Source: a virus
DNA length: 25,398 nt
Direction: 5' to 3' (one strand)
Virus record (IMG/VR): IMGVR_UViG_3300035698_004071
Span: 1 to 25,398 of that record
Below are positions 2,392-22,539 of the stretch, one piece after another. A program made the position numbers and the translations under genes. Under the pieces are notes generated by a model that was not told where the DNA came from, did no database searches, and saw nothing but the letters and a program-made list of their open reading frames with translations. The stretch's first letter is position 1; each line of letters begins with the position of its first letter.

Positions 2392-3318
2392 ATGTGGACA
2401 CGCGCAAGATTTAACGATGAATACGTCCCCGGTCTTTTTGCTCTGGCAGTGGATACTTACATCACCAAGCGAGCAGAAAGCATGTGGAAACAACTCGTCA
2501 CGACAAAGACGAGTCAGAAGAAAAAGGAAGAAGACGTTATCCGATCCGGTTTGGGCTTGCCCCAGATCAAGGGTGAGGGTTCTGGAGTCACTTATGACAC
2601 TCAGATTGCCGGTGCGAAACAGACATGGATTCACGATGTCTTTGCACTTGCTGTCAGAATTACCGAGGAAGCCGTTGACGACAATTTGTACGAGTTGAAA
2701 GGCGGCGGTGACGGTGCAGAACTGAAGGAAATCTTCTATGATTTGGGCGAAGCTATGGCCGAGAATGTTGAAGTCCGTATGGCAAGGTTCTTCAATTCGG
2801 CAACGGCCACAACCTATCATACGACAAGGGACAGTGTGGCGTTTGCATCAGCAAGCCACTCAAGGCTGGACGGTTCGACCTACTCCAACCTTTCGACAAA
2901 TGCAGACCTTACCTATGACACTTTTTGGGCGGTCTTGATTGCTGCTGAGAATCAGTACAACCATCGGCAGTATCGAACCAAGAAAAAGGTCAAGAACCTC
3001 TGGATTCCTCCCCAGCTTGAAAAGAAAGCCAGGGAAATACTCTATTCACCGGACAGGCCAGATAATGCCAATAACGCAATATCTGCTTATAAACAGTCCG
3101 GCAGAAAGATCGGCCTGAAATCATGGCCTCACATGACCGATACGGATATGTGGGTTATGCAGTTGGACGGCAGGGGAATTGTGCATTTCAACCGGAGAAA
3201 GACGAGATTCGCAAGGGACAAGGACTTCCAGACCGGAGATTTTATGGTCAAGGGAGATCAGCGTTTTAGTGCTGAAATAGCAGACGAGCGTGATTTTTAT
3301 TTCAACGTTCCTGCTTAA
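2392..3318 (+). CDS. Major capsid protein (HK97-like fold)
   Basis: A 308-residue protein preceded by AAAGGAG. The order of segments is that of HK97-fold coat proteins. There is an N-terminal helical arm, then 'YDTQIAGAKQTW' and 'RITEEAVDDNLYEL' (the usual strand leading to the long spine helix), then 'MARFFNSA'. Next comes the 'SHSRLDGSTYSN...DLTYDTFW' P-domain region (about 152-180), then 'LWIPPQLEKKAREIL' (about 204-218) and a C-terminal beta region with 'TGDFMVKGDQRFSAEIADERDFYFN'. Length is typical. No protease domain is present upstream in the window, and a separate scaffold gene is, which fits assembly on an unfused scaffold. A hairpin follows the gene. Confidence 0.85.
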   Translation: MWTRARFNDEYVPGLFALAVDTYITKRAESMWKQLVTTKTSQKKKEEDVIRSGLGLPQIKGEGSGVTYDTQIAGAKQTWIHDVFALAVRITEEAVDDNLYELKGGGDGAELKEIFYDLGEAMAENVEVRMARFFNSATATTYHTTRDSVAFASASHSRLDGSTYSNLSTNADLTYDTFWAVLIAAENQYNHRQYRTKKKVKNLWIPPQLEKKAREILYSPDRPDNANNAISAYKQSGRKIGLKSWPHMTDTDMWVMQLDGRGIVHFNRRKTRFARDKDFQTGDFMVKGDQRFSAEIADERDFYFNVPA

Positions 3319-5712: not shown

Positions 5713-6825
5713 ATGGCACTTGAATCTGTTTCAGGATATTACGAGGGCTACACACTTCAGCAACTCGAAGAACAAATTTTGTGGGAATTAGGCCAGGTTT
5801 CAGGCGTAACGGCTTCATATGGGAAATTCCCACAGACAAAGATCAGGGAAAAGCTCAATAACCGTCAAGCCTGGTTTGTGCATCACACCCATTGTCTAAA
5901 GAAGTTCGCTCTTATCGTGGCAAAGGAGAGTTACAGACAGTATAAACTTCCGACAAACTGCATGGACGGCGGCCTGATAGCGGTTAAATACTACGACTCA
6001 GCAACGTCTTACGCAAATATGGAGGTTGTTGACCTTGATTATATGAACAACACGCATGAGGGTTATCTTGTGGCCGATGACGGAACACCGGAATATGCTT
6101 TCATGGGAGATTCGTACGGCAATATCCCGATGCTAGAGGTTCATCCTGCTCCTGATGCAGACGGCACGAACTACACCGTATCACCAGACACCGGAGTTGT
6201 GACAGGTGGAGACATACCAGGGGCAACAAATAACGTATCAGGGACCGCTACCGGCGGTTCAGGCACTACCCTTGAGGACTCAGCTACCACCTTGACGTCA
6301 CTTGGTCTTGTTGGTGGAATGTACGTTAGGAACGTCACAGACGGCTCATACGGCTATATCTTGTCAGTTGCGACCAACACCATCACTTTTGCAGCTACTT
6401 TAACAGGGGGTACGGCAAACACGTTCTCGGCAGGGGATTCTTACCTGGTTCTATCCGGGGAATATGGAGTAGTAACTTCATGGGAGAATGACGATCAGTT
6501 CATATTCGGGTCAGAAGTCGGGATTTTAAGCAGCGTGACGGTTCCGGCAGGGAACTTCAGGGCAGATTATGTGCCGTATCCGTTAGAGTTTCCGTCAACT
6601 GGAAATGACCAGATGAAACCCGAAATCCCGAAACTATACCAAATGGACGCTCTTGCCATGGGAGTTGTTGCGGATTTTTTAAGGACGTTTCACGAAAACA
6701 GCAAACAATTTAAAAGGGCTGAAGCCTATGACAAGATCGCTAATTTGGCGACAGTGGCAGCTTCACGCAAGAAGTCAACAAGGCCGTTTAAAAACAAACC
6801 CGTAAGAATGAGGCCGGTGTTCTAA
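5713..6825 (+). CDS. Head-tail adaptor / tail tubular protein A-like
   Basis: A 370-residue protein just upstream of the nozzle gene, the position of T7 gp11 and P22 gp4-type adaptors. The N-terminal helices (about 10-75; 'KIREKLNNRQAWFVHH') and the later 'FRADYVPYPLEF' strand with helical C terminus ('YQMDALAMGVVADFLRTF', about 312-329) are typical of this class. A beta module of about 75 residues (about 176-250; 'LGLVGGMYVRNVTDGSYG', 'FSAGDSYLVL') is inserted in the middle. It resembles the core of the two preceding small proteins. The C terminus is strongly basic (Lys/Arg, about 345-370), which suits contact with DNA or portal. Its stop overlaps the next start (TAATG). Confidence 0.65.
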   Translation: MALESVSGYYEGYTLQQLEEQILWELGQVSGVTASYGKFPQTKIREKLNNRQAWFVHHTHCLKKFALIVAKESYRQYKLPTNCMDGGLIAVKYYDSATSYANMEVVDLDYMNNTHEGYLVADDGTPEYAFMGDSYGNIPMLEVHPAPDADGTNYTVSPDTGVVTGGDIPGATNNVSGTATGGSGTTLEDSATTLTSLGLVGGMYVRNVTDGSYGYILSVATNTITFAATLTGGTANTFSAGDSYLVLSGEYGVVTSWENDDQFIFGSEVGILSSVTVPAGNFRADYVPYPLEFPSTGNDQMKPEIPKLYQMDALAMGVVADFLRTFHENSKQFKRAEAYDKIANLATVAASRKKSTRPFKNKPVRMRPVF

Positions 6826-8630
6826 TGATAGATCATCTTTTATTTAACGAGGGTGTTTCTGATGATGTGAGATCCGCACTTCAAAAGCCGGGATACCTGA
6901 AGACCGCCGTTAATATCGCGTTCAAGAAGGAAGGTCAACAGGGATTAAGGACAGGTTATAAAAAAGTAAATCCAACTGCGGTTAGCGCTATACATTCGAT
7001 TAAGCGTTTCAGGGATAGGCTGTTAATCGGAGACGCGGCCTATTTGCGCCACAATGTGTTATATGGGGATTTCACATCCCTTGGAAGTGATTTTACAAAC
7101 GCCATATTCACATCAAGTGAATACAAGGATTTTCTTCATCTTGTAAACGGCACCGACAATCTGTTTTTCGATTCAAGCGGAAATCTTTATAACGCTTTTG
7201 TTGCCAACCCGATAACCGCACCAGCAGGGGCAGCCGGTGCATCCGGAAGTCCAAGCGACACCTATGCTTTATATGTATCCTATTTAATTACATGGCCAAA
7301 CGGCCAGCAGTATGAAACCGGGCTTTCGGACAGTGTTGACGTAAAGGTTGCGAGTGAGAAAATAAGCTGGTCAAGTATTCCATTAAGTGCTTATGCGGCA
7401 ACTTCAGGCACAGCGCCAACGATTCATAGAAAGCTGTATCGCGGACCCGGAACCGGGGGAACTTTAGCAGATATCTATCTTGTGACAACCTTAACAAACA
7501 ACACAGCTACGACCTACACAGATAATGTTACCGATGCAGCACTTGCGGCAAACGGGGCGTGTGCGGTTGATACCTACATCGTACCACCGACAACTCCTAA
7601 ATATCTGGAATATCATTACAGTAGATTGTTTCTAATCGATACGACTAATCCCCACAGGCTTTATTACTCCGAAGCACCACAGGGCGATACGAGTACTGAA
7701 AACGAGGTTTTAAGACCATTGGCTTATGTGACAGACAACTGGATAGATTTAAGGGCGGCTGGATTCGGCAGGGTAGATCCGCAGGGACTTTTAGCGTGGG
7801 GAACTTATATCTATATCCCGTTAAAGCACACCTGGATAAGAAAGGACGGCAACGACCCGGACACCTGGAACATTAAAAAAACATGGGCGATGCATGGTAT
7901 ATCAGCACCACATACAATTACGCCGATTGGCGAGGTTAATGGAATTATAGGCTTGTCATCCCCAAGGGGAGGGACACCGGGACTTTCAATATTCAACGGC
8001 AGTACGAGTAGGATAATCACACACGACAGATTTGCAGACTTATTTGAGGACGATCTAAACCATGACCAAATTCACAAATGCCGTGGAGACTTTGACGGAA
8101 GATATTATCATCTTTTATATCCGTCTGGAAGTGCAACCGAACCGGACAAACACGCGGCATTTGATCTTTTAAGATACCCGGAAATAAGACTTGCATATTG
8201 GGAGGATCTAAACGGCAGATGTATAGATGTGGATGAACAGAGTACGAGGGTTTATATCGGCGGTTCAGATGGATATGTGAGAGAAAATTCTGGCGGTGAA
8301 ACCATTAATGTCGAGGTCGAAACTCACGACAATATCGGCGGTAAAATTGAGCTTGCGAATACAAAAAAAACAATCAAGGAAATTAAGTACTCCATAAACA
8401 CAGGCGGGGAGAACGTAACACTTGAAATCTATCTGGGCGAGGATCTTGCAAAATGGTCTGACGGATCAACATCAGTCTTAATTTCAGGTACAGACGACAG
8501 CGTTCAGTATTTCAAGGACATCCCGCCTAATTGGGAGTGCTATAAATATTCGATTAAAATAACAGGTACGGGTTTGGACACATTTGAGCTTTTCAGTCCG
8601 TGGGATGTTCATCTTGATATTACGAAGTAA
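6825..8630 (+). CDS. Tail nozzle / tail tubular protein B-like
   Basis: A 601-residue beta-rich protein overlapping the adaptor stop by one base. It has repeated blades of the type seen in podovirus nozzle proteins (P22 gp10, T7 gp12): 'SIKRFRDRLLIGDAAYLRH' (about 57-75), 'YLEYHYSRLFLIDTTNPHRLYYSEAP' split by a turn (about 262-286), 'IDLRAAGFGRVDPQGLLAWGTYIYIPLKHT' region (about 307-336), and 'YYHLLYPSG' (about 426-434). The phrase 'NPHRLYYSEAP' in a blade is a strong recall of this family. Residues about 140-245 form an inserted fibronectin-like domain ('YALYVSYLITWPNGQQYETG'). It would sit below the adaptor and anchor fibres. No enzyme motif is visible. Confidence 0.72.
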   Translation: MIDHLLFNEGVSDDVRSALQKPGYLKTAVNIAFKKEGQQGLRTGYKKVNPTAVSAIHSIKRFRDRLLIGDAAYLRHNVLYGDFTSLGSDFTNAIFTSSEYKDFLHLVNGTDNLFFDSSGNLYNAFVANPITAPAGAAGASGSPSDTYALYVSYLITWPNGQQYETGLSDSVDVKVASEKISWSSIPLSAYAATSGTAPTIHRKLYRGPGTGGTLADIYLVTTLTNNTATTYTDNVTDAALAANGACAVDTYIVPPTTPKYLEYHYSRLFLIDTTNPHRLYYSEAPQGDTSTENEVLRPLAYVTDNWIDLRAAGFGRVDPQGLLAWGTYIYIPLKHTWIRKDGNDPDTWNIKKTWAMHGISAPHTITPIGEVNGIIGLSSPRGGTPGLSIFNGSTSRIITHDRFADLFEDDLNHDQIHKCRGDFDGRYYHLLYPSGSATEPDKHAAFDLLRYPEIRLAYWEDLNGRCIDVDEQSTRVYIGGSDGYVRENSGGETINVEVETHDNIGGKIELANTKKTIKEIKYSINTGGENVTLEIYLGEDLAKWSDGSTSVLISGTDDSVQYFKDIPPNWECYKYSIKITGTGLDTFELFSPWDVHLDITK

Positions 8631-9571: not shown

Positions 9572-10294
9572 ATGCCTGAAGATAAAGGATTTTTCACGGG
9601 GGCAACTGAGGCTTTAAAGTTGGCGGTGCCTTTGGTGATTCAGAAACGGAGACTTGATTCCGTGGAAAGCCGGTTTCAACAGAAGATGGAACTGAAAAGA
9701 AGTGAGATATTACAAGAGGGCATTGAGGCCCACGATAAAATACAGGCTGACTTTATAATAGATAAGCTCAATGTGGAAATGGAAAAGTTTCAATTCAACG
9801 AGGAATTATCCCTTGACAAAGCGAAATTAACACAAAAAACGAACCAGGAATCAGACGAGCTTGAATTTGAAAAACAACAAGAGCAGACAGACAAAGAACA
9901 AGAAGCGGCGAAACTTACATTTAACAAGCTCAAACTTAATACACCCAAGACCACAAAACCAAAGGATAGGACCACCGAGAACCGGATGAGGGCGAAGGAC
10001 ATAGCCGCATCTGAAAAGAAGATAACGGAAGATAAGGATTTTACACAGATAGATTTCTTCAATCAATATGCCAAGAAACCATATGTTTATACCGTTGGAG
10101 AAGGCAAATCCCCATGGCATCTTCCGATTGCAGGTTGGGAAATTCCTTTGACCGGAGAAGCCCCTGAACCCAAGCAGATAAAACTCCCAAAATATCAAGG
10201 AAAGCAAGTGTATGCCGAGGACGTATATCAAACCATGATCGATAACGACATGACCTTTGAGGAAGTTCTAAGAGAAATCGGAGCTTTGAAATAA
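9572..10294 (+). CDS. Coiled-coil ejection-block protein
   Basis: A 240-residue protein with TAGGAGG before the ATG. Residues about 20-155 are almost entirely charged and helical (Glu, Lys, Gln, Asp) with heptad-like spacing, so a long coiled coil is expected. The last 75 residues are less charged and contain 'GKSPWHLPIAGWEIPL', perhaps a small folded tip. It overlaps the 10294 start (TAATG), so translation is coupled to the giant protein. It most likely assembles with its neighbours as an internal or ejected virion protein. No family name is certain. Confidence 0.6.
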   Translation: MPEDKGFFTGATEALKLAVPLVIQKRRLDSVESRFQQKMELKRSEILQEGIEAHDKIQADFIIDKLNVEMEKFQFNEELSLDKAKLTQKTNQESDELEFEKQQEQTDKEQEAAKLTFNKLKLNTPKTTKPKDRTTENRMRAKDIAASEKKITEDKDFTQIDFFNQYAKKPYVYTVGEGKSPWHLPIAGWEIPLTGEAPEPKQIKLPKYQGKQVYAEDVYQTMIDNDMTFEEVLREIGALK

Positions 10295-13200
10295 TGGGCG
10301 TAAACCTATTTGCAGAAACCGCACCAGCAGGAAAAAACATTCCATCATCCATCTCGCCAGATGCTTTCAGAAAAGATGGTACAAAAAAAGGCGTTGGATT
10401 TTTAGGAGCCTTAAAAAGACCGGACGGCAGAACTTCAACTGAAGTATCAATCGGTATTGAATTTGATGGCAAGGAAGCAGAGATACCATCCCTTGTTCGG
10501 ACACTTACAAGTGAAGAAATTGAATATATTAGAACTACTAAATTAAGCCCTGAAATGTGGAAAACTCCTATTGGGAAAAAGATAGTGCCAAAAGCCATAG
10601 ATCACGCAAAAGAAAGAATGGAAAAGGGGCTGAGTCCTTTTTACCAAAAAGATGAGGGGAAATCGAAAAGCACCGGCACAGGGCGAAACCTGTTTGCAAG
10701 TGGTGTGAAAGATCGAGCAAAGAGTTCGTTTACACCTTTAGTTATGCCAGAACAGGAAGGGCTTTATGAGGGATTTGTAAAGCCGACAATCAAAGACATC
10801 GGAAAGAACATTGTGGCAGCCGGAGAAACGGGCTTATCATTTGGCACAGGTGCGGCGTTGTGGCCGTTTTCAAAGGCATACGGACTTATGGCGCTACCAT
10901 TTGGTGAGGACGTTTCAAGACAGGCTGAACAAGACATTGCAGGATTGGCATATGAGCCAAGGACAGGGCTTGGAAAACAATCAACCGAAACTTTAGGCAA
11001 GGCTTTTGAGATCGGACTGACTCCCGCAAGGATGGCCGGAGAAGGTGTTAAGGAGCTTGTCGGTCCAAGGGCGGGGTATATCGCTGAATTGGTCAGCGAA
11101 TTGGCGATGTTTAAGATTGCCCATAGCGCCGGTAAAAAGATAGCGGCACCGAAAAAGGCTGAATTTGAGAAGAAATTAGCGAAACTTTCACCTGAAGAAC
11201 TGTCCGAGGTTCAGGAAGCTGCGTTCAAACTTGATGACACCTATGCCAAGACGGGTCCGGTAGAGAGGGGCAAAGAGCTTGTACCGAGCCATAAACCCAC
11301 CGTGGATATGAAACAGCCCCCCACCATAGAAAGAACCAAGCCAACACTAAAGGCGTTGCCACCTGCACAGGGATTTGAGCTTGTCGGAAAGCCGAAGGGT
11401 GAACCATCAAAAATCAAGTCTGGAGAGGTCAGGACTGAAAAGAAAAAAGCGGCGTTTATTGATGAAAACCTAAAACTCGAAACTAAAAGAAAACCCGGAG
11501 AGCTTGGACAGGTCAGGCGATTCGGAATGATGGAACCAGGCAAACCAAAATCACCACCGGCTGAAACCGGGACGCTGAGAGGCCAGATAGTTCAGGCTGG
11601 TGGTATCAGAAGTGACCAATTCGATACTTTATTCAAAGACCGCGCACCTACCGAAAGAGCATTGTCACGAAGGCGAGGAAGGCGCATTGACGAGCTTGAG
11701 ACAGAATTAAGAGAAGACGGCTTTTTATTGCCGACAGAATCCCTTGCCGATGCCTTGAAGGACTCGAAGCGTTTGGGCATGAAGAAGTTGAGCGACGACA
11801 AGCAATTTAAGTTTCATGAGAAGCCGGTTGAGGAACCGCCAAAGGTGAAAGCCGAGGTTAGGCCGGAAGCCACATTTAAAGAGCAAGAAGGGGTTGTATT
11901 TCAAGGAGGAGGAAAGGGACATGACTCAGGATTCTATACAACATCCCCAACCAAAGCGAGGATATTTGCTGAAACTGCGAAGAAAGAGGGTTATGACCCT
12001 GAAATAAGAGCATACAAAGTAAGTGATATGCCTGAAGACTTGTTTTGGGAAGGAGATAATTTACTACCAAGAAATGAATTTGTTAAAAAACATGGCAGGG
12101 AAATTGGAGATCCTGCAAAAAGAACAAAACCATTTGAATCAATATCTTTGGACGAATTTAACAAGCAAAAGCCCACCCCCAAAGCCGAGGCGAAGGCTAA
12201 AGAGCCGTGGGAGATGAGCAAGGCTGAGTATCGTGGGCGGTATAAAAAGGGAGAAAGTGACAAGGTTATTGTTGAGAAAATTGGATCATCAAAACCTGAA
12301 GATATATTGAACTATTATAAAAAGAAATATCCAGAACTAAAAAACACAGAGATTGAACAAGGTGGAGGTGTTGCTGATGTCATGCTAACCAAGGGTGCTG
12401 ATGAGGGCATGGTTAAGATTGATGGAAAAAAATTTACTATTAGAATAACCAAAGTCGCATCTCCCACTACAGTAAGGCACGAAATAGAACACTTGCTTGA
12501 TGAAATTCATAACAGAAAACCCGGATTTGGTAACTTTTCGAGGTTTAGGCATAAGGAATTTCCCGCTGATTATAAGCATCGTCAATCAGTCAAGCAAGCC
12601 ATATCCGATGGCCTTAAAGTTTCCGAATCCGTACTCAAGGACTACCCTGAACTAAAGGCCAAGCCTAAATATAAGGCCATAAAAATATACAGGGGGGAAA
12701 GCGCCTATAATAAAGACGGTAGTTATTATACCAAAGACAAGGAATGGGCGAGGCAGTTTACACAGTCTGGATTAGACAAGGAGATTAAAGAGACATCTAT
12801 TCTTGAAAAAGATATTTACAAGGCAGAACCACTCCCAAGAGCAACGAGCGAAAAAGATTTTGATGTTGCAATAAGCGAGGCTAAAAAGAAGGGTTTTGGT
12901 GCAGCCTGGTTTGATGAAGGGCCAAGAGAACCAAATTCCATTTTTGTAATTGATAAATCAAAGACGAAGCCCAAGGTCAAAGACATTCTTAAAAGCGAAA
13001 AGGGTGCGATTGAAATTGATTTGTCCATAGTGAGGGACGTAGGCAAGGGCGCAAAGGAAGCCTACAAAGACATCAAGAAAATGGGTGATGAGTATCTTGG
13101 TTCGATTTCCACACGGTTAGGAAACATAGACCCGGAACTTAAAAATCATTTAAGAAAGTACGAGTTTAGACAACGAAGAAAGATACTGAAGGACACAAAG

Positions 13201-14922
13201 CGAGTATTGCCGATGCTCAAAAAGATCAAGAAAATGTCGGCAGAAGACCAGAGAATATTCGATCTTGCACGAAAGAACGGTGGATCAAAAACCATTCAAG
13301 AACTTATGCTCAAATATGACATGGCTAAAGAATACAAAGAAACCCGCAAAGTCTTAAATGAGATGTACGATGAAGCCCAATCAGCAGGGTTTGACGTAGG
13401 GTACAGGGAACACTTCCACCCAAGGGTAATAAAGGACACCGAGGGATTTTTAACCCACTTTCAGAAAGGAACCGATTGGCCACTGTTCGACAAGGCTATC
13501 AAGGAAAAAGAGGTAAAGCTCGGAAGATACCTTGAGGCCGATGAAAAAGCACAAGTTATAAACACCATGCTCAGAGGATACGAACAAGGAGGTATCAGAC
13601 TTTCAAAACCCGGACAATTAAAAGCAAGGACTATCGAAAAAATCACTCCTGAATTAAACAAGTTTTACATGAGCGCAGATGCTTCTTTGATTCAGTATAT
13701 CAATAAAGTTACGGCTGCGGTTGAGGCAAGAAAGATATTCGGCAAGGGCGAGAACATAAACGATTCAATAGGCCATTATATTTTAGACCTGATTGCAAAG
13801 GGTAAGATCACGCCAAAAAACGAGGTTATACTACGCGATATTTTAAACGCCAGGTTCAACGAGAAGGGAACCAGGGGCGTTGTGGGGATGTATAAAAACC
13901 TATCGTATATCGACACAATGGGATCACCGATATCGGCAATTACACAGATAGGAGATTTATCGTGGGCGTTATATAAGAACGGCATACCAAGGACGGCAAG
14001 CGCAGTTGTAACGGCGGTCAGGGGCAAGTCATTAATCAAACCCAAGGATTTGGGGATTGAAAGAATCGCAGAGGAATTTACGGAACCGTCAAGGCTTTCA
14101 AGTGCGGTCAACACGGTTTTTAAGGCCGTAGGTCTTGAGAAGATAGACTTTATCGGAAAAGAAACCCTGATCACATCCACAATTAAAAAAGCACAGAGTC
14201 AAGCCAAGTCGAAAAACCTAAAGAAACTTGGTGAGCTAAAGGCAGAATTAAGACCGATCTTTGGCGATGAAACTATGTCTCTTATCACCGATTTAAGAGA
14301 AGGGAACATTTCAGAGAACGTCAAGCTATACGCCTTTAACGTATTGTCAGACTTTCAACCTATCGCACTTGCAGAGATGCCACAGAAATATCTCACAGGT
14401 GGAAACGGCAGAATTTTTTATATGCTAAAGACCTTCACTATAAAACAGTTTGATGTTTACAGAAAAGAGGTTTTCCAGAAGATCAAGACACCCGGAACAC
14501 GAATCAAAGGCATTAGAAACCTTGTTAGACTTGCGGCGTTTTTTGTAGCTGCAAATGCAACGGCAGACACAATCAAAAGTCTTATCTTAAACAGGCCATT
14601 AGATCCTGAAGATTTGCTCGTTGACAACATTCTCAGGCTGTTTGGCATCTCAAAATTCGTGACTTGGAAAGCGAGGTCTGAAGGTGTTGGGAGTGCGCTT
14701 GTCAGACAGGTAGCGCCACCGTTTAAGTTTATTGACGCAGCAACCAAGGACATAAACAGGGCCGGTGATGAGAAGGGGCTTGAAACCACTTCATCAATTC
14801 CGTTGGTCGGAAAACTATATTATTGGTGGCTTGGAAAGGGCGCTAAAAAGTCAGAAAAGAGACGAAAGAAAAAGTCGAAAACAACAAAATTCAAAGGTAT
14901 GTCAACTATAAAGGGATTTTAA
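10294..14922 (+). CDS. Giant ejection protein with zincin and ADP-ribosyltransferase-like segments (polyvalent protein)
   Basis: A 1542-residue protein. Residues about 14-115 form a recurrent phage N-terminal domain ('GVGFLGALKRPDGRTSTEVS' and 'IPSLVRTLT'). Residues about 166-206 are Gly/Ala-rich and may insert in membranes. From about 534 there is an ADP-ribosyltransferase-like pattern ('VFQGGG...SGFYTTSPTKARIFA'). A 'PWEMSKAEY' motif lies at 638-646. A perfect zincin motif, H729-E-I-E-H733, follows in 'TVRHEIEHLLDEI'. A second transferase-like segment begins at about 797 ('KIYRGES...GSYYTKDKEWARQF'). Residues about 905-1190 are helical and charged. The C-terminal 340 residues ('MGSPISAITQIGDLSWAL', a hydrophobic helix near 1415) resemble large polyvalent protein-associated domains. 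Such proteins (Iyer, Burroughs and Aravind family set) are thought to be injected with DNA. The activities are inferred from motifs. Confidence 0.7.
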   Translation: MGVNLFAETAPAGKNIPSSISPDAFRKDGTKKGVGFLGALKRPDGRTSTEVSIGIEFDGKEAEIPSLVRTLTSEEIEYIRTTKLSPEMWKTPIGKKIVPKAIDHAKERMEKGLSPFYQKDEGKSKSTGTGRNLFASGVKDRAKSSFTPLVMPEQEGLYEGFVKPTIKDIGKNIVAAGETGLSFGTGAALWPFSKAYGLMALPFGEDVSRQAEQDIAGLAYEPRTGLGKQSTETLGKAFEIGLTPARMAGEGVKELVGPRAGYIAELVSELAMFKIAHSAGKKIAAPKKAEFEKKLAKLSPEELSEVQEAAFKLDDTYAKTGPVERGKELVPSHKPTVDMKQPPTIERTKPTLKALPPAQGFELVGKPKGEPSKIKSGEVRTEKKKAAFIDENLKLETKRKPGELGQVRRFGMMEPGKPKSPPAETGTLRGQIVQAGGIRSDQFDTLFKDRAPTERALSRRRGRRIDELETELREDGFLLPTESLADALKDSKRLGMKKLSDDKQFKFHEKPVEEPPKVKAEVRPEATFKEQEGVVFQGGGKGHDSGFYTTSPTKARIFAETAKKEGYDPEIRAYKVSDMPEDLFWEGDNLLPRNEFVKKHGREIGDPAKRTKPFESISLDEFNKQKPTPKAEAKAKEPWEMSKAEYRGRYKKGESDKVIVEKIGSSKPEDILNYYKKKYPELKNTEIEQGGGVADVMLTKGADEGMVKIDGKKFTIRITKVASPTTVRHEIEHLLDEIHNRKPGFGNFSRFRHKEFPADYKHRQSVKQAISDGLKVSESVLKDYPELKAKPKYKAIKIYRGESAYNKDGSYYTKDKEWARQFTQSGLDKEIKETSILEKDIYKAEPLPRATSEKDFDVAISEAKKKGFGAAWFDEGPREPNSIFVIDKSKTKPKVKDILKSEKGAIEIDLSIVRDVGKGAKEAYKDIKKMGDEYLGSISTRLGNIDPELKNHLRKYEFRQRRKILKDTKRVLPMLKKIKKMSAEDQRIFDLARKNGGSKTIQELMLKYDMAKEYKETRKVLNEMYDEAQSAGFDVGYREHFHPRVIKDTEGFLTHFQKGTDWPLFDKAIKEKEVKLGRYLEADEKAQVINTMLRGYEQGGIRLSKPGQLKARTIEKITPELNKFYMSADASLIQYINKVTAAVEARKIFGKGENINDSIGHYILDLIAKGKITPKNEVILRDILNARFNEKGTRGVVGMYKNLSYIDTMGSPISAITQIGDLSWALYKNGIPRTASAVVTAVRGKSLIKPKDLGIERIAEEFTEPSRLSSAVNTVFKAVGLEKIDFIGKETLITSTIKKAQSQAKSKNLKKLGELKAELRPIFGDETMSLITDLREGNISENVKLYAFNVLSDFQPIALAEMPQKYLTGGNGRIFYMLKTFTIKQFDVYRKEVFQKIKTPGTRIKGIRNLVRLAAFFVAANATADTIKSLILNRPLDPEDLLVDNILRLFGISKFVTWKARSEGVGSALVRQVAPPFKFIDAATKDINRAGDEKGLETTSSIPLVGKLYYWWLGKGAKKSEKRRKKKSKTTKFKGMSTIKGF

Positions 14923-15831
14923 ATGCCAGAAATGCCGTTCACGCTTACGGAGACAGACCCGGAAAAGAAAATCGAGCAGATGTTTCTCATGGTGTCCGAG
15001 CTTTATCAGGAGCGCATAGGCGGTGCAATCATTGGGGATGTATTCACCATTGGCGATGACGACATTCTTTCTCTTGCATTGAGTTCCACCGGGGGGCTTA
15101 AAAAAGCATCAAGCGAAGTTGCAATCAAGGTCAACAGCACAGGTGGGCTTGAAACCGATTCTGACGGTGGGGCTATAAAGATTAAATCTACAGGTGGGCT
15201 TGAAACCGATTCTGACGGCGGGGCTATAAAGATTAAATCTACAGGTGGGCTTGAAACCGATTCTGACGGCGGGGCTATAAAGATTAAATCAGCCGGCGGA
15301 TTGGAAACCGATTCTGACGGACTTCAACTTACCGATGCAACAAAAAATATTGACCTGCCGATTGCTACAGGCGGGGGCACTTCCACGGTATCGGCCATTA
15401 CGGGCGCAACCTCAATAGACTTTAACGCCGATGCCGAAACTGCATATACTAAATTTCATGTGCCTTTGGATTGGGACGCTGCGAGTGATTTAACATTAAA
15501 GGCTACGATCCAGAACCAAATAGCCGAGGACGATGGGGATGATATCAGTTTTACTTGTACGATTCACGGTGTTGCAGACGGTGAGACAAATGCCGATGCC
15601 GGTCAATCGGTTGCTTTGGCTTTAAATTTAACGGGCGGGGATGAGGCCATAAACAAGGCTAATCTTGTAAGCGGAACAATAGACTATAATCACGGCACAT
15701 ACCCGATAGCCGCAGGGGATGCGGTAATTATAAAAATAGTTGTCAATCTTGGAGGTGCCGGGGAATGCACCGGACCCCTCCATATTATAGATTGGTGGAT
15801 AGAATATACTTCAAATAAGCGAGGGACTTAA
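14923..15831 (+). CDS. Tail fibre with beta-spiral-like shaft repeats
   Basis: A 302-residue protein starting at the base after the giant ejection gene. The N-terminal 55 residues ('MPFTLTETDPEKKIEQMF', then a short hydrophobic strand) could be the tail-binding part. Residues about 56-134 are a shaft of five units with a 17-residue period, consensus 'STGGLETDSDGGAIKIK'. The 'GL..D..GaI.v' pattern matches the triple beta-spiral repeats of adenovirus and related fibres, which form trimers. The C-terminal half (about 145-302) is beta-rich with 'YTKFHVPLDWDAASDLTLKA' and a final 'IIDWWIEY' strand, and could be a jelly-roll-like receptor-binding head. The assignment as a fibre is firm; the trimeric fold is inferred. 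Confidence 0.75.
   Translation: MPEMPFTLTETDPEKKIEQMFLMVSELYQERIGGAIIGDVFTIGDDDILSLALSSTGGLKKASSEVAIKVNSTGGLETDSDGGAIKIKSTGGLETDSDGGAIKIKSTGGLETDSDGGAIKIKSAGGLETDSDGLQLTDATKNIDLPIATGGGTSTVSAITGATSIDFNADAETAYTKFHVPLDWDAASDLTLKATIQNQIAEDDGDDISFTCTIHGVADGETNADAGQSVALALNLTGGDEAINKANLVSGTIDYNHGTYPIAAGDAVIIKIVVNLGGAGECTGPLHIIDWWIEYTSNKRGT
15088..15324 (+). repeat. 51-base in-frame tandem repeat (17-residue shaft units)
   Basis: Units begin at 15088, 15139, 15190, 15241 and 15292, exactly 51 bases apart. Units two to four are nearly identical in DNA. The first and the last are diverged. The near-identity suggests recent copy-number change by slippage or unequal exchange, so shaft length may vary between related phages. 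Confidence 0.9.
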
Positions 15832-15832
15832 A

Positions 15833-17857
15833 ATGAAAAAAGGCTTTTTATCTATATTGGTAGTTTTGATTCTTTCCGTATCATTGTGTTTTGCGGGCTC
15901 ACTTACCAAGGGGTTGATCGGAAAAGAAGATTTTGACCTATGGGACGGTGTTGACGAGACTTTCACAAGAGCAACATCTTCCGGTTATGACATGACCCTT
16001 CATAGTGTGGATTGGCCCGGTGTTGACATCCTTAAAATCTATGGCGGAGGGGTTAATCGCACAAAAGCAACGATTAGTTCTGCAATGACGGCTGTTGGAA
16101 CTTCTAACAAGATGAGATTCTTTCTGTCACCTGGAACGTGGACTATTACGGATGATATAACGATTACAAGCAACATAGAACTTTACTGTCCTCCTGGTGT
16201 TACGCTTTCCATAACTACAGGAAAAACCCTTACGATCAACGGTCCGTTTAATGCCGGATTATATCAGGTGTTTAGTGGAGCCGGAAGTGTTGCGTTTGGT
16301 AATGATGGACATATTAAAGAGGTCTATCCTCAATGGTGGGGGGCATTAGGAGATTTAAGTAATGATGATACCGCAGAAATTCAAGCGGCTTTAGATGCGT
16401 TTCCTTATGTCTTTTTACCAAGGGGTGAATATCTAACCTCCGCTGTTATAACATTTAATGAATCAAATTCATTGGTGGGTGTGAGCAGCAACCACACGGA
16501 CGCAAAAAGGGACGATGTGACAAGTATCTATGCTAGTCATGCTACCGGAGATGCTATTTTAATCGATCAATCTTACCCTGTTATTAAAAATGTTTGTATC
16601 TTTTCAACCGGGACAAGGGATACTGCGGGTGTAAGTGGAAATGGTATTACCATAGATAAAGCCACTGGACAGTCGTTGTATGGCAGATTCGAGAATATGA
16701 TTATTAAAGACCAACCTGACAGCGGTTTTTATATGGAAAATGGTGAACAGACCTTTGTGAAAAATATTAATACTATAGATAATGGGGAGCATGGTTTTTA
16801 CTTGGAAGGTGAATCCCCCGCGGCAAACGAGCCGTGGAACAGTACTTTTATAAATTGTCGTGCAACTGGCAACTCCGAACTTGGGTGGTATGTTGATGCC
16901 GTATTTGCATGTACCTTTATAAATATACAGGCAACTGAAAACACAGGAAATGCAGGCTGTGATGGTCAGGCATTGTTTAGAAATTGCAAGTCTGTTCAAA
17001 TCATCAACCCGAATGTTGAGGATCAGGACGGAGATGCCTCGACATTTGGTATTGAAATGAGGGCTTGTTTAAGCTCTGAAATATTCGGTGGTCATTTCTC
17101 ATCTCTAACATACGCAATAAAACTAAACGGTGCAAGCAAGGGGTGTAAGGTTACATATCCTCATGCTGTTAATACTAACGCAACCGCCAACATGACAGCA
17201 ATGGTATGGGTTGCATCGGCAGATGTTGAAGACGCTGTTGTTGCACTTCAGCAGGACTTATTGGACGATGTTGATGCCAGAATTGTGGACTCAGGAACTA
17301 ACACCGTTGTTTTACCCGCGGCTTATCAGGTATTACAAAACCTTTGGATCCCGGCTGATAAGTGGACTCCGGCGACTACCAATGGTTGTGCTGCTCTTGC
17401 AAGCGCAGAAACGACGACAAATGATTACATGATTGAATATCTCGCGTTTGATAATGGAACAGAGGAATTTGCTACACATAGCTTGGTAATGCCAGAAGGT
17501 TGGGATCGTGGAACTGTAAAGGCAAAGTTCTATTGGATACCTGCGACTTCATGTACCGCCGGTGATACAGTAGAGTGGGAACTTGGCGGTGCTAATGTAA
17601 GCAATGATGGAACTGTTGACTCAACATTCGGTACACCTAAAGCTATAAGCGATACTGTAACTGCCGGAGTTGAGGCCGATTTACACATATCAGCCACAAC
17701 CGCCGCGATTACAATCTACAATACCCCGGCTCTGGGGGATTATGTTCATCTTAAAGTCTCAAGAAACGTAGGAGGAACCGATGACATGACAGAAGACGCA
17801 TGGCTACTTGGGGTATTGCTTCAGATAAAAATAAACAAATATGTGGCAGGGTGGTAA
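15833..17857 (+). CDS. Tailspike, pectate-lyase-like beta-helix with N-terminal signal peptide
   Basis: A 674-residue protein. It begins with Met-Lys-Lys, a hydrophobic core (residues about 5-18) and 'LCFAGS', a good type I signal-peptidase site after A21. A leader region is followed by 'PQWWGALGDLSNDDTAEIQ' (about 166-184), the signature start of the pectate_lyase_3-type tailspike helix. Repeating coils then run to about 450. Residues about 500-674 ('NLWIPADKWTPATTNGCAA', 'SLVMPEGWDRGTVKAKFYW', 'LLGVLLQI') form a separate beta domain widely seen at the C terminus of phage fibres. The likely role is binding or cleaving a surface polysaccharide. A signal peptide on a tailspike is unusual; see findings. 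Confidence 0.75.
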   Translation: MKKGFLSILVVLILSVSLCFAGSLTKGLIGKEDFDLWDGVDETFTRATSSGYDMTLHSVDWPGVDILKIYGGGVNRTKATISSAMTAVGTSNKMRFFLSPGTWTITDDITITSNIELYCPPGVTLSITTGKTLTINGPFNAGLYQVFSGAGSVAFGNDGHIKEVYPQWWGALGDLSNDDTAEIQAALDAFPYVFLPRGEYLTSAVITFNESNSLVGVSSNHTDAKRDDVTSIYASHATGDAILIDQSYPVIKNVCIFSTGTRDTAGVSGNGITIDKATGQSLYGRFENMIIKDQPDSGFYMENGEQTFVKNINTIDNGEHGFYLEGESPAANEPWNSTFINCRATGNSELGWYVDAVFACTFINIQATENTGNAGCDGQALFRNCKSVQIINPNVEDQDGDASTFGIEMRACLSSEIFGGHFSSLTYAIKLNGASKGCKVTYPHAVNTNATANMTAMVWVASADVEDAVVALQQDLLDDVDARIVDSGTNTVVLPAAYQVLQNLWIPADKWTPATTNGCAALASAETTTNDYMIEYLAFDNGTEEFATHSLVMPEGWDRGTVKAKFYWIPATSCTAGDTVEWELGGANVSNDGTVDSTFGTPKAISDTVTAGVEADLHISATTAAITIYNTPALGDYVHLKVSRNVGGTDDMTEDAWLLGVLLQIKINKYVAGW

Positions 17858-17860
17858 ATT

Positions 17861-19810
17861 ATGAAAAAAATAGTGTTTATTGCGGTTTGTATTTTACTTT
17901 TAACTGCATCCCAACTTTGTGCAGCCACATCAAGTTATAAAACGTCCGAAATGGACGATCTTCTTGACGAAGTAACTGCGGGCGTTGCCTCAAGTGCTGG
18001 TGCTGCTGATGCTGGAAAGATCATTAATCTTGATTCTGGAGGTCTTATCGACAGCACGTTTTTAACGGATGTGATAGGCGCTTCCGAAATGGATGATGCA
18101 GACCACGGAGACTTTTCGTGGTCAAGTGGATCTGGAACAATTGACGATGATGTTTTGGACAAGGCCAACTTCAAGGACGAGGACTGGGGTGACGGTTCGA
18201 TTTCCACCAACTCGTTCACTATCGATGACGATGTTCTGGACAAAGCTAACTTTAAGGATGAAGATTGGGGAGACATGAGTGTGTCTACCAATTCTGTTAC
18301 CCTTGATGCTGACGTAGTTGCGGCGGCTGAGATGGCTGATTCCGACCACGGATTCTTTACCTATGCAAGCGGGATTGCTTCTCTTGATACTGGCGGTTTG
18401 ACATCTGCCAATTTACTTGGGGCGTTGACAAACGAAACCGGGACAGGTACGGCGGTATTTTCTATATCCCCGACCTTTACCGGAACCTTGAGTGCCGCTG
18501 CCCTAACAACAACAGGCACACTTACTTTCGGAACAGACACTCTAACATCAGCAGAATTGTTGGATACTTTGAGCAACGAAACTGGAACTGGTGTTGCTGT
18601 TTTTGGTACGTCCCCGACAATTGGTGGAACGGCGGTAATGACAAATATAGACGGTTCTGGCACGGTGAGCGCAAATTTGTTTACTCCTGATGCCGCCGAT
18701 GGTGCGGCTCTTGGTACAACCGCTTTAGAGTTTTCAGATGGTTATTTTGCTGACGGCGCATTGATTTACTTCGGTGACGATCAAGAAGTCGCTTTAGCTC
18801 ATCTACATGATTCAGGTATAAAACTTTATGGGGTTTTAACAAGTCAAGCAGCATCGCCCGGATGGATTGGAAATGATACTTCTTATGGAAACACCGCTGT
18901 TGTAAATATCTATGGAGCTTTACAAGATGAGGTAGCTGGCACATATGGAAATGTTACTTTTAGGGGACGCACCAGCGATGCTTTAGCCACCTTTATGACA
19001 TATGAGGGTTTTACAGATCAATTATCATTCAACAAATCCACACGCATGAATGACAGCATTTACAGTCTTTATGGTACTGGAAGCGATGCAAAAATAGGCT
19101 CAAGCACAGCGAATCAATTAGACATATTAGACAGTTCGGATAATGTAGTGTTTTGGTTCGACATGGCCAATTCGACTTTTAACGCCAAAGCAACCGCATC
19201 CCCTCAAGTGGGGCTGTATGATTCGAGTGATAACGATGGAGCAGGGGCAGCCAGAGATGATCACTATGCAGGCGGCATAGGTGCAAACTTTTCGCTCGAT
19301 ACAGAGGACGCCGAGGTATCAGATGTGTCTTTTTATTATATGGATGCTGGAACAAAAAGCGAAGCAATCACCATTGACGGATCAGCGGATCAGATTATAA
19401 CCGGCGTAGGGATTGCAGACGATCACGGTGGTTATTCCACAAGAGTTTTCGCAGCAACAAGTGGTTCACTTACTGGTGCCACTGATAAAATAGAACTTAA
19501 TGTACCTACTGGATGGGTGATTAAAAGGTGTATGCTGCATGTAAAAACAGCGGTGGTTGATAGTGCCGGGGATGATACGTGGAGTTCGGAGTTAAACGAT
19601 GGAGCGCAAGAAGAAATCATCTCTGCTGGTTCGGCAGCGGCCCAAAATACGAATGTAACCCACTTCGCTCACGAAGACTCGGCATATGGCGGCACCCTGA
19701 CCAATGCCGAAACCGACATTCTTTTGACACCCAATGGAGGCAATTTTTCATCCGGTGAAATTGAAGCGCATTGTCTATGTGAAGGTTTCGTGGCTTGGAC
19801 TAACGAATAA
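17861..19810 (+). CDS. Tail fibre with 27-residue repeats and N-terminal signal peptide
   Basis: A 649-residue protein. Residues 1-21 are Met-Lys-Lys, a hydrophobic stretch and 'QLCAATSS', a Sec-type signal with cleavage after about A21 or A22. Residues about 67-174 are four 27-residue repeats. A beta-rich low-complexity region follows ('NETGTGTAVFSISPTF', 'NETGTGVAVFGTSPTI', about 35-40 residues apart). Next come a typical fibre segment near residue 290-320 ('EFSDGYFADGALIYFGDDQE') and a C-terminal domain of about 120 residues ('STRVFAATSGSLTGATDKI' to 'CEGFVAWTNE'). The stop overlaps the next ATG. A host-range fibre is the best reading. The ligand is unknown. Confidence 0.7.
   Translation: MKKIVFIAVCILLLTASQLCAATSSYKTSEMDDLLDEVTAGVASSAGAADAGKIINLDSGGLIDSTFLTDVIGASEMDDADHGDFSWSSGSGTIDDDVLDKANFKDEDWGDGSISTNSFTIDDDVLDKANFKDEDWGDMSVSTNSVTLDADVVAAAEMADSDHGFFTYASGIASLDTGGLTSANLLGALTNETGTGTAVFSISPTFTGTLSAAALTTTGTLTFGTDTLTSAELLDTLSNETGTGVAVFGTSPTIGGTAVMTNIDGSGTVSANLFTPDAADGAALGTTALEFSDGYFADGALIYFGDDQEVALAHLHDSGIKLYGVLTSQAASPGWIGNDTSYGNTAVVNIYGALQDEVAGTYGNVTFRGRTSDALATFMTYEGFTDQLSFNKSTRMNDSIYSLYGTGSDAKIGSSTANQLDILDSSDNVVFWFDMANSTFNAKATASPQVGLYDSSDNDGAGAARDDHYAGGIGANFSLDTEDAEVSDVSFYYMDAGTKSEAITIDGSADQIITGVGIADDHGGYSTRVFAATSGSLTGATDKIELNVPTGWVIKRCMLHVKTAVVDSAGDDTWSSELNDGAQEEIISAGSAAAQNTNVTHFAHEDSAYGGTLTNAETDILLTPNGGNFSSGEIEAHCLCEGFVAWTNE
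18059..18382 (+). repeat. Four 27-residue (81-base) fibre repeats
   Basis: Units start at 18059, 18140, 18221 and 18302. The pattern is (I/L)D-x-DV(L/V)..A(N/E)(F/M).D.D(W/H)G, then about ten small polar residues. Units two and three are identical over their first 18 residues but differ at 11 of those 18 codons, all synonymous. The protein repeat is therefore old and constrained, unlike the DNA-identical repeat at 15139. Confidence 0.85.
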
Positions 19811-21762
19811 TGAAAAAATCTATCCTATTAGCTATATCAATCCTTCTTTTGTTGGCATCTCCTGCGTGGAGTGCTACTTGGTATGTTACTCAGTCTGGTG
19901 GAGGAAATGGAACTGCTTATGCCTCTCCAATGAGTGTCGCGCAGCACAATGCCAATACTTATGGGATAGGTGCGGGCGATACGGTTTATCTTTGCGATAT
20001 TACTACTTCAAGAATAAACGCTCCAATTAGCGGTTCATCAGGACAGGAGATTACTTATCGTGGGGACGATGCAGGGCATACTGCAACAGTCAGATACACT
20101 CATGGGACTGCTTCGGCCTTCTCGACCAATAATAAAAATTATTTAATATTCTCAAATATCTTTTTTGATGGGGATGGGTCAAACGGGTATGGTGGATTGG
20201 TTATCAGCGGTGGAAGTGATTATATTGACGTCCGATCATGTACTTTTGAAGAATTTTCCTCAAGGGGAATCACTATACATGAAGATGGATCACACACCTC
20301 GATCACCATAGGTGGAAGCGCCGCATACGCCAATACTATTTATAATTGTGGAACTGACAACGGTAGTGGGGATATAATCGGGAGCAATATAACCGGTTTG
20401 ATTATCAGCCATAATCATTTGTACGCTGATAATGCAACCTATGGTATAGACGGGATTGCATTATTTTATTCCTCAGGTATTATAGAGTACAACAGGATTC
20501 ATGGTCATAATAGTGCTACCGGTGAAACTGGCGAAGACGGGATTGACCTCAAGGCAGACAATCACGACCTAATTATTCGTTTCAATGCTATTTATGACCA
20601 TGAGTATCAATCCGGCATTACCGTACAGATGGGATCATATGATATACATATTTACGGTAATTTGATTTATGATAACAAGTGGGGGGGGGTTTATATCAAA
20701 AGGGCGTGTGAAGGCTCTCACGATATGTACAATATAGATGTTTGGAGTAATATTCTTTATGAGAATGGCGCTGGTGTAGCGGTTAACGAGAGTGGCGGTA
20801 ACTATGAGGGTTGTCGTGGCCCAGCCAATCTTAGCGATGTTGGAATTTATAACAATATCTTAGCAGAAAACGGCAATTGGGCTGGAAACTTATATTCGAG
20901 GGGAGGAGTTGTTCTTCAGCATGGTTCGGGCCATGTAGTTAAAAATAATATCTTCTATAAAAACCACGGACTTTATGGTGGAAACATCTATGAGCAGGTG
21001 GCTCTAACAGGTGGCACAGGGACTTTCGATTATAATTATTACTATTACGATGCTACGACAACAAGGGACTATTTTTATACAGATGGGGCAAAAACTTTCA
21101 CTGAATGGAAAGCAGAGGGTTTTGATGATGGTGGAGACAGTTATTATATAGATCAGGAGATGGTAGATGAGGACAACCAAGACTATACTCTGGAAAGTGA
21201 CTCACCTTGCATTGACACTGCTGCTGATCTTTCTCAATGTTTTGGTGTCTACATTCAAGATGAACTATACAATGTATGCCTTGAGTATGGACTTGATCCC
21301 GGTGCAGCTACCGACTGGACAACCACACCGCCGACAGTCGGCTTCTTAGATCAAGGAGATGCTTGGGAGGTGGGGGCTTATGTATTTTCAGCTTCCGATG
21401 TCACAGCCCCAACAATATCAGGTTCAGGGCCATCGGGTGTCGAAACTTGCACCTCAGATCCAAAAGACGTAACGATGACATGGGATACAGACGAAACAGC
21501 TAACTGTCGAATCTCAACTACAAATCAGGCTTATGCTGCCATGCCAGCGGATTCTGTAACGACCACAGATGCAATGTCTCACAGCGACACAGAATCTTTT
21601 GCCTGCGATGCCTCATATAACAGATATGTTGCATGTATTGATCCAAGCGCCAATGATTCCACTGTTACAACTATTAGCTTTTCAATAGGGACAGGCGTAC
21701 CGCCTGAACCGGACTCATCTGGAACGGGGGTTGGAATGGGATGTGCTGGCGGTTCAATGTAA
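19810..21762 (+). CDS. Beta-helix spike or glycan lyase-like protein with signal peptide
   Basis: A 650-residue protein. Residues 1-21 are Met-Lys-Lys, a Leu-rich core and 'SPAWSATW', a clear Sec signal with cleavage after S21. 'ATWYVTQSGGGNGTAYASP' after it is the usual opening of secreted right-handed beta-helix proteins. Coils with Asn ladders run from about 60 to 440 ('LIFSNIFFDG', 'IIEYNRIHGHN', 'GEDGIDLKADNHDLIIRFN', 'IHIYGNLIYDN', 'VVKNNIFYKN'). 'ESDSPCIDTAADLS' (about 461-474) matches the closing motif of choice-of-anchor Q/NosD-like helices. The last 110 residues are a beta-sandwich-like domain with paired Cys ('VETCTSDPKDVTMTW') and a Gly-rich tail. A catalytic site cannot be assigned. 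A G9 run lies inside (20681-20689). Confidence 0.72.
   Translation: MKKSILLAISILLLLASPAWSATWYVTQSGGGNGTAYASPMSVAQHNANTYGIGAGDTVYLCDITTSRINAPISGSSGQEITYRGDDAGHTATVRYTHGTASAFSTNNKNYLIFSNIFFDGDGSNGYGGLVISGGSDYIDVRSCTFEEFSSRGITIHEDGSHTSITIGGSAAYANTIYNCGTDNGSGDIIGSNITGLIISHNHLYADNATYGIDGIALFYSSGIIEYNRIHGHNSATGETGEDGIDLKADNHDLIIRFNAIYDHEYQSGITVQMGSYDIHIYGNLIYDNKWGGVYIKRACEGSHDMYNIDVWSNILYENGAGVAVNESGGNYEGCRGPANLSDVGIYNNILAENGNWAGNLYSRGGVVLQHGSGHVVKNNIFYKNHGLYGGNIYEQVALTGGTGTFDYNYYYYDATTTRDYFYTDGAKTFTEWKAEGFDDGGDSYYIDQEMVDEDNQDYTLESDSPCIDTAADLSQCFGVYIQDELYNVCLEYGLDPGAATDWTTTPPTVGFLDQGDAWEVGAYVFSASDVTAPTISGSGPSGVETCTSDPKDVTMTWDTDETANCRISTTNQAYAAMPADSVTTTDAMSHSDTESFACDASYNRYVACIDPSANDSTVTTISFSIGTGVPPEPDSSGTGVGMGCAGGSM
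20681..20689 (+). repeat. G9 homopolymer in the spike gene
   Basis: Nine G in a row encode Trp-Gly-Gly-Val at residues 291-294. It is the longest G run that I see in the window. Gain of one G gives a TGA after about nine codons. Loss of one G gives a TAG after about 18 codons. Either would truncate the protein in mid-helix. Confidence 0.9.
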
Positions 21763-21884: not shown

Positions 21885-22055
21885 ATGAACGGAATTGAAA
21901 AGGAAACATTTGTTGGAGCAAAGCCGGATGTCAGGGATGAGATTTTATTCGACATGTTTATGAATATTTGGACTCGCATGGATAGGTTTGAAAAACGTAT
22001 ATGGGGCTATGTTTTGGTGATGGTAATGCTGATTGGTGCGGTAGCTATCAAATAA
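21885..22055 (+). CDS. Small C-terminally anchored membrane protein (possible lysis accessory)
   Basis: A 56-residue protein with AAGGA 7 bases before the ATG. The first 38 residues are polar and charged ('DEILFDMFMNIWTRMDRFEKR'-like helix). The end is a single hydrophobic segment, 'WGYVLVMVMLIGAVAI', then Lys. A polar helix plus a C-terminal membrane anchor is the layout of XhlA-type haemolysin/holin-associated proteins. It lies just before the endolysin promoter. A lysis-accessory role is inferred from layout and position; it is too short for a firm family call. Confidence 0.6.
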   Translation: MNGIEKETFVGAKPDVRDEILFDMFMNIWTRMDRFEKRIWGYVLVMVMLIGAVAIK

Positions 22056-22110: not shown

Positions 22111-22539
22111 GTGGAATGTAAGAGATGCTCAACAGAAACGTACATAATTCACATCAATGCTAGCCATGAGCATCTTTGCCAAAAGTGCTACGACATGGGA
22201 GATATAACAAAAAACTTTAGTCGACACGAATTTACCTGCAAGTGTGGCTGCGGGTTAAATGATATAGACCATCGCATAGTCCACCGCCTCCAAGTTGTCC
22301 GAGATATTCTCCAAGTAAAAATAACTATAAACTCTGGTTGTCGGTGTTTAAACCACAATTATAATGTCGATGGTAAACCTGCGAGTTTGCACCTAATAGG
22401 CAAAGCTGCCGATTGGTCGGTGGAGGATGAAGAAACACTCATGGAAGCCGGTCGTATGCTTGCGAATTGGAGCGGTGGATTTCGTCACTACCTCGATTTC
22501 ATCCATTGTGATCTAGGGCCGAAAAGGAGATGGGGATAG
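22111..22539 (+). CDS. Endolysin, M15-family peptidase with N-terminal zinc ribbon
   Basis: A 142-residue protein. The start is GTG at 22111, with AAAAGG 8 bases before it. ATGs at 22106 and 22109 are out of frame. Residues 3-26 hold C3-x2-C6 and C23-x2-C26, a zinc ribbon. Residues 36-142 are a peptidase M15 (M15_3/VanY-like) domain. It shows 'FTCKCGCG', 'INSGCRC', then 'S92-L-H94-L-I-G-K-A-A-D101' and 'F-I-H132-C-D-L-G-P-K-R-R-W', giving H94, D101 and H132 as the zinc ligands. M15 endolysins cut peptide bonds in the peptidoglycan stem. There is no signal peptide, so release depends on the holin (23994). The added N-terminal ribbon is uncommon. The promoter and dyad lie immediately upstream. 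Confidence 0.85.
   Translation: MECKRCSTETYIIHINASHEHLCQKCYDMGDITKNFSRHEFTCKCGCGLNDIDHRIVHRLQVVRDILQVKITINSGCRCLNHNYNVDGKPASLHLIGKAADWSVEDEETLMEAGRMLANWSGGFRHYLDFIHCDLGPKRRWG

Follow-up and report, generated by a model that had tools for sequence, protein, structure and literature searches.

The anatomy of Sec signal peptides is well established, and the tailspike of phage P22 is the last part to be added to the particle, a step that also works in vitro. To our knowledge, the assembly of tailed-phage virions is regarded as taking place entirely in the cytoplasm. Phage proteins that leave the cytoplasm have nevertheless been described: T5 Llp, a periplasmic lipoprotein of the outer membrane, jams FhuA (PMC9586334), and lambda Lom carries a signal peptide and is encoded between spike and fiber genes (PMC12309495).

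Here, we describe three consecutive genes, A, B, and C, in a 25.4-kb IMG/VR virus record (IMGVR_UViG_3300035698_004071; the whole stretch of 25,398 nucleotides is referred to as the window) that contains a capsid gene and encodes an Hc3-type head-closure protein. Read from the sequence, the case comprises the N-terminal leaders themselves, a predicted type I signal peptidase site behind them, a late position between tail and lysis genes, and the recurrence of such leaders in front of known phage tailspike N-terminal domains (N-domains). We give about even chances to the view that A and B, probably joined by C, are tail proteins that bind receptors or degrade glycans and that would be synthesized with a working Sec signal peptide, exported, trimmed, and freed at lysis. 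No description of a signal peptide on a tailspike was found in the openly licensed PubMed Central texts on phages and signal peptides, which agrees with an earlier note on this DNA that had named the arrangement its lead candidate for something undescribed.

Leaders of genes A, B, and C

Genes A (15833..17857, 674 amino acids), B (17861..19810, 649 amino acids), and C (19810..21762, 650 amino acids) lie on the plus strand and all start at ATG. As the earlier note had proposed, each of these open reading frames (ORFs) begins with Lys-Lys, a single hydrophobic core, and a type I cleavage site near residue 21; the core length of 12–14 residues given there does not hold for A, in which it is nearer 16. 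The leaders occupy 15833..15895 in A (MKKGFLSILVVLILSVSLCFA), 17861..17923 in B (MKKIVFIAVCILLLTASQLCA), and 19810..19872 in C (MKKSILLAISILLLLASPAWS), all on the plus strand, and are followed directly by GSLTKG, ATSSYK, and ATWYVT, respectively; mature A would begin with GSLTKGLIGKEDF. Residues −3 to −1 of the predicted cut are C-F-A in A, L-C-A in B, and A-W-S in C. All three leaders fit the anatomy of substrates of Sec and signal peptidase I, i.e., a positive n-region, an uncharged core of ten or more residues, and small residues at −3/−1. In a 19-residue scan, hydropathy peaked at 2.5, 2.5, and 2.0 in the leaders of A, B, and C and stayed at or below 1.3 in the remainder of each protein, which revealed no second strongly hydrophobic segment.

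Several other explanations were rejected. A wrong start codon is not supported, as later starts within the first 80 codons have at most a 3-base Shine–Dalgarno match. A separate moron with its own promoter finds no intergenic room, and promoter-like sites were not above shuffles; from position 14922 onward, the gaps between consecutive genes are 0, 1, 3, and −1 nt, a co-translation layout without space for a promoter. Lipoproteins processed by signal peptidase II were likewise dismissed, since VSLC (A) and SQLC (B) do not fit the lipobox tested at the core end ([LVI][ASTVI][GAS]C) and the leader of C lacks a cysteine; Pfam LPAM_1 gave only a weak match to C (E 2.4).

The earlier note had referred to all three genes as tail or spike genes, which is shown for A by Pfam and by fold, is likely for B from its phage homologs, and is not shown for C. 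A combines its leader with a spike N-domain, a pectate-lyase-type beta-helix (PF12708, E 1.5e-11, above the cut-off), and a phage C-terminal domain, and it matches phrog_7458 (tail spike). The best PDB matches of its structure model are phage tailspikes (Geobacillus virus E2 ORF18 and the Klebsiella K2-2 tailspike); the model has a mean pLDDT (predicted local distance difference test) score of 56 and is reliable for residues ~80–270 only. The N-domain of mature A (15896..16099, plus strand; TKGLIGKEDFDLWDG...) starts at Met in the leaderless homolog L077 (L numbers denote the loci compared), and the C-terminal domain (17336..17854, plus strand) shares 44–58% identity with leaderless proteins of other phages. 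Among isolate phages, relatives of A are confined to this C-terminal domain. B consists of its leader and fiber-like repeats, the fiber-like character being judged by eye, and large ORFs without a leader on IMG/VR contigs match its middle part, whereas neither Pfam nor PHROG returned a match. C, a leader followed by 629 amino acids that look beta-helix-like by eye only, also lacks Pfam and PHROG matches, and its structure model (pLDDT 36) is unusable. No relatives of B or C were found among the isolate phages searched. Overall, A has a tailspike fold, B has phage-fiber homologs, and C has no assignment. A bacterial origin of C was rejected: matches, both weak, occurred in 2 of the 297 genomes from the phylum of the Geobacter metagenome-assembled genome (MAG) that contains locus L119, described below.

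Directly upstream of A lies the tail fiber gene F (14923..15831, plus strand), which contains short tandem repeats and, as noted earlier, encodes no leader or hydrophobic N-terminus. Genes from the tail regions of two further viral contigs share 58–76% identity with its C-terminal domain; a common origin of this domain with the C-terminal domain of A was rejected (hhalign probability 5%). The repeats of F (GGLETDSDGGAIKIKST, window positions 15150–15330) are near-perfect and weakly match the avian adenovirus fiber repeat PF06536. One siphophage-like contig with an F homolog (L235:12391-15683) has three small leader-bearing genes shortly past its tail genes.

Leaders before three unrelated N-domains

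Across the relatives examined, leaders directly precede three unrelated phage N-domains that begin at Met in other phages. The first is that of A, which has a leader in A and L037 and none in L077 (MAVITKGFIGKEDFKLWDG) and L092. Cutting A behind FA, in front of GSLTKGLIGKEDFDLWDG, gives the same start as in L077. The second domain is found in L012, where MKK...CVTA is followed by GATYVNTYPKFKAWDTNANPLVGGKV; its leaderless counterparts are the 'tailspike' gp02 of Shewanella phage X14 (MAVSIIGPKFYAWDRCGKPLAFGKL) and gp26 of Rhodoferax phage P26218, and the L012 domain is ~45–58% identical to tailspikes of the X14 gp02, BA3, and P26218 gp26 type. The L012 contig belongs to a P22-like phage, with an Hc3 protein (E 4e-86 to P26218), a gp4-type gene, and DNA-ejection genes. 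A second leader-bearing gene follows the spike, and both show weak matches to CBM_4_9 and K1-lyase_C. For A as well as L012, the predicted cut would yield nearly the same N-terminus as that of the leaderless homologs.

The third domain, Mtd_N (PF18454), stands right behind the leader in L119 and L126. L119, a contig of the Geobacter MAG, has three consecutive leader-bearing genes, the third of which combines leader and Mtd_N (E 6.6e-15), and also carries capsid (phrog_334, E 1e-104), internal virion protein, and terminase genes. L126, a prophage in another genome recovered by the Mtd_N search, combines the leader with Mtd_N (E 3e-17) and Phage Tail Collar (E 2.6e-25), and is 100% identical to the IMG/VR contig L155 across the 52 residues compared (Mtd_N region). 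Immediately upstream of this fiber gene with leader, Mtd_N, and Collar domain lies a 4516-amino-acid ORF (L134:157-14967). A second Mtd_N search of genomes gave an identical genome set.

Judging by these alignments, the leader is an added module. It would have been gained or lost as such rather than called from a wrong start, because it lies in the translated frame and the window offers no usable later start. The earlier note had named leaderless homologs with a later Met as true start as a finding that would speak against it; homologs without a leader do exist (L077, L092, and X14), and a usable later start in the window does not.

Predicted cleavage, frequency, and possible fate of leader-bearing spikes

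For a survey of leaders, we used our own rule, which contains no cleavage motif and demands Lys/Arg, then nine uncharged residues with a mean hydropathy of at least 2.2, near the start, and a Shine–Dalgarno match of at least 3. Every ORF of the viral loci was screened with it. The spike set comprised 64 non-redundant IMG/VR proteins that share the GKTLTING...KEVYPQWWGA domain of A; IMG/VR contigs are fragments, and some are possibly misclassified. The rule was positive in 20 of these relatives, among them the plainly spurious L044, leaving 19 of 64 (A included) in a set that was gathered by a conserved-motif scan and is not a random phage sample. Among other ORFs of at least 150 amino acids in related viral loci, 29 of 483 were positive (Fisher p = 1.3e-7). 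In E. coli, 7 of 88 ORFs were positive, most of them encoding membrane proteins (such as nhaA and lspA) and others, mipA and yaaI, exported proteins, so that the rule detects leaders but cannot by itself separate them from first membrane spans. Given these background rates, three leaders in a row are not expected by chance, in line with the earlier note.

Leaders also cluster: they were found on 14 of 59 genes neighboring leader-bearing spikes vs. 8 of 114 beside leaderless ones (p 0.003), and on 12 of 55 when the window was left out (p 0.009). Consecutive leaders are not peculiar to the phage of the window, as two or more leader-bearing genes also occur in L097, L119, L061, L012, and L084, with arrays of two to four. 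Leader-bearing spikes are located in podophage, siphophage (L063, with a tail protein J-like gene), and myophage (L078, with baseplate genes) surroundings. Leaders are not a general feature of tail proteins: they precede only one of the 42 non-redundant Mtd_N proteins from viral contigs and none of those listed from genomes of the phylum Bacillota.

A type I-like site, scored behind the core as [AVSTGCLI]-x-A, was present in 18 of the 19 leaders; shuffles of the same residues gave a mean of 13.8 and reached 18 in 20 of 2000 cases, a test of moderate strength only. Furthermore, five spikes of one SU10-like group (L016, L042, L054, L065, and L079) have leaders that differ in sequence and length, with the cleavage site (ASA, ANA, TNA, ASA, and ASA, respectively) in one alignment column. 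The residues behind this column (EFFSDV, EFFRDV, TYLRDL, DYFRDV, and EFFPDV) follow an [EDT][FY][FL]xDV-like pattern. In L016 and L042, a terminase gene (phrog_38) adjoins the spike, and L016 also has an SU10-type portal. The leaders therefore resemble cleavable Sec signals, and they cluster on neighboring tail genes. The sites make it very improbable that the leader is kept uncleaved and gives the virion a hydrophobic anchor or an element of its tail tip, as the earlier note had considered. L037, whose leader has no clear type I site, would suit such a role, and the structure model of A draws the leader as a helix. The 18 sites among 19 leaders, the common cut column in five spikes, and the leaderless homologs that carry the same N-domain argue against it, as do A and L012, which would nearly match the N-termini of these homologs once cut.

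Another explanation is that spike domains acquired their leaders by fusion with secreted bacterial proteins, and that the leader is tolerated as an evolutionary leftover with little function. In Planctomycetota and Clostridia, proteins of the secreted type do carry the domain of A, and the viral rows in a tree of this domain require 11 or more changes of leader state; the starred branches force only two changes over all rows, as most forks are weak with 133 columns. We consider this explanation improbable, since very hydrophobic leaders would be hard to ignore, and since they diverge in sequence while their features and cleavage site persist, are enriched on spikes, and precede three unrelated N-domains. 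Two bacterial contigs, L107 (Planctomycetes) and L115 (Clostridia), encode five proteins with the spike domain of A each, most of them with a signal peptide.

From the anatomy of the signal, we infer Sec export and trimming by signal peptidase I, and functional export of the leader-bearing spikes appears quite likely. The very hydrophobic leaders would route A, B, and probably C through Sec, signal peptidase I would trim the spikes to the N-terminus of their leaderless homologs, and mature trimers would gather outside the inner membrane until they are set free at lysis. The trimmed spikes may then attach to completed particles at lysis or later, which is the least certain step. Such docking, to which we assign slightly less than an even chance, is the fate that we think most likely, the main hint being that trimming leaves the N-domain where an ordinary spike has it, at the start of the protein. 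The P22 tailspike, which joins the particle last and can also be attached in vitro, makes docking after lysis plausible.

By analogy with T5 Llp, the proteins could instead be exported without ever joining a virion and, built from spike domains, act as periplasmic or free glycan-cleaving or receptor-blocking factors against superinfection or against the sticking of virions to debris. This alternative, less likely than not, ranks close behind docking. It would fit the two to four leader-bearing genes per array, and it draws on exported receptor blockers such as T5 Llp (PMC9586334) and on the signal-peptide-bearing Lom (PMC12309495). The virion could be served in the window by F, which has no leader, and on the L012 contig by a spike-like gene (L135:1281-3248) likewise without one. 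Conversely, A, L012, L119, and L126 have kept phage N-terminal domains for which a free protein would have no use, L012 sits in the usual spike position, none of A, B, and C has a lipobox, and A and B, at 650–670 amino acids, are unlike small exclusion lipoproteins.

Several of these observations weigh against export followed by docking. With F and the spike-like gene of the L012 contig, a virion could manage without exported spikes, and exported receptor blockers are already known from phages (T5 Llp). Neither the C-terminal part of A nor C as a whole gave a good model, and the shuffle test is of limited strength, as stated above. Arrays of leader-bearing proteins with the domain of A in Planctomycete and Clostridia genomes suggest that some leaders may derive from captured secreted proteins. 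Cysteine content and parity are the same in leader-bearing and leaderless spikes, and disulfide adaptation to an oxidizing compartment was rejected for lack of any such difference.

Sec leaders in a considerable part of a single spike family would imply that some phages put host-recognition or glycan-cutting proteins into the envelope of the infected cell. This would bear on the order of virion assembly, on superinfection exclusion, and on the origin of soluble depolymerases. Tentatively, such phages might represent a widespread but unrecognized class of tailed phages, whose spikes pass through the host Sec system, are trimmed, and are added at or after lysis, so that assembly is split over two compartments. 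Annotation may be affected as well, as leader-bearing spike genes could be listed among secreted proteins of bacteria.

Surrounding genes and comparison with known systems

The capsid, head-closure, putative ejection, and endolysin genes named here lie on the plus strand. The major capsid protein (2392..3318) matches PF25209 Phage_capsid_4 (E 2.5e-8, above the cut-off) and phrog_371, and the head-closure or tail protein of the Hc3 (P22 gp10) type (6825..8630) matches phrog_8040 'head closure Hc3' (E 1.3e-5). The leader-gene block is flanked by a putative ejection protein of 1542 amino acids (10294..14922) and by an endolysin of the peptidase M15 type, the last gene of the block (22111..22539; PF08291, E 1e-15). 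In P22-like phages such as X14 and BA3, the position of the 1542-amino-acid protein is taken by the giant ejection (internal virion) protein. The protein of the window has no family match, and a homolog search with it returned only weak local matches; it shares 36% identity over 98 amino acids with a 1153-amino-acid protein of L019 that itself matches phrog_6651 'internal virion protein'. The sole close relative of the window, L036, is ~61–89% identical in the head genes, and its contig stops before the spike block. Between the capsid and head-closure genes, 4780–5301 and 5302–5709 encode neighboring paralogs (43% identity over 154 amino acids), and part of the protein starting at 5302 is also similar to residues 194–246 of the next protein (5713). 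Just ahead of the endolysin, a small ORF (21886–22055) has a single C-terminal hydrophobic segment and is holin-like by eye.

T5 Llp and lambda Lom resemble the proteins described here in leaving the cytoplasm (PMC9586334), and lom likewise lies among tail genes (PMC12309495). They differ in being a small lipoprotein or an outer-membrane protein, not spikes, and in lacking virion-type domains; compared with Llp-type superinfection exclusion, A, B, and C are large (649–674 amino acids) and have no lipobox. Secreted bacterial pectate-lyase-like proteins (PF12708) share the combination of a signal peptide and a beta-helix-type domain, including the KEVYPQWWGA-type motif in Planctomycetota and Clostridia loci. 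However, in these bacteria they form arrays on the chromosome, and none of them was seen to carry the phage C-terminal domain of A. Fibers of the major tropism determinant type (Mtd_N, PF18454) are comparable in that L119 and L126 have this domain right behind the leader, while leaders are otherwise the exception in that family, as given above.

A further comparison is with P22-like phages. In Shewanella phage X14 and Thalassomonas phage BA3, the late genes are ordered as capsid, head closure, ejection proteins, giant protein, and tailspike; the order in the window agrees, and in the window as well as in L012 the spike follows the giant ejection protein. The proteins of the window gave no direct sequence match to the X14 and BA3 isolates, so that its likeness to them is one of gene order and remote families. 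The tailspikes of these isolates (X14 gp02, BA3, and P26218 gp26) and the L012 spike have their N-terminal domain in common at the identity given above. The difference concerns its start: the isolate tailspikes begin at the N-domain without a signal peptide, whereas the proteins of the window and of L012 carry a Sec leader ahead of it.

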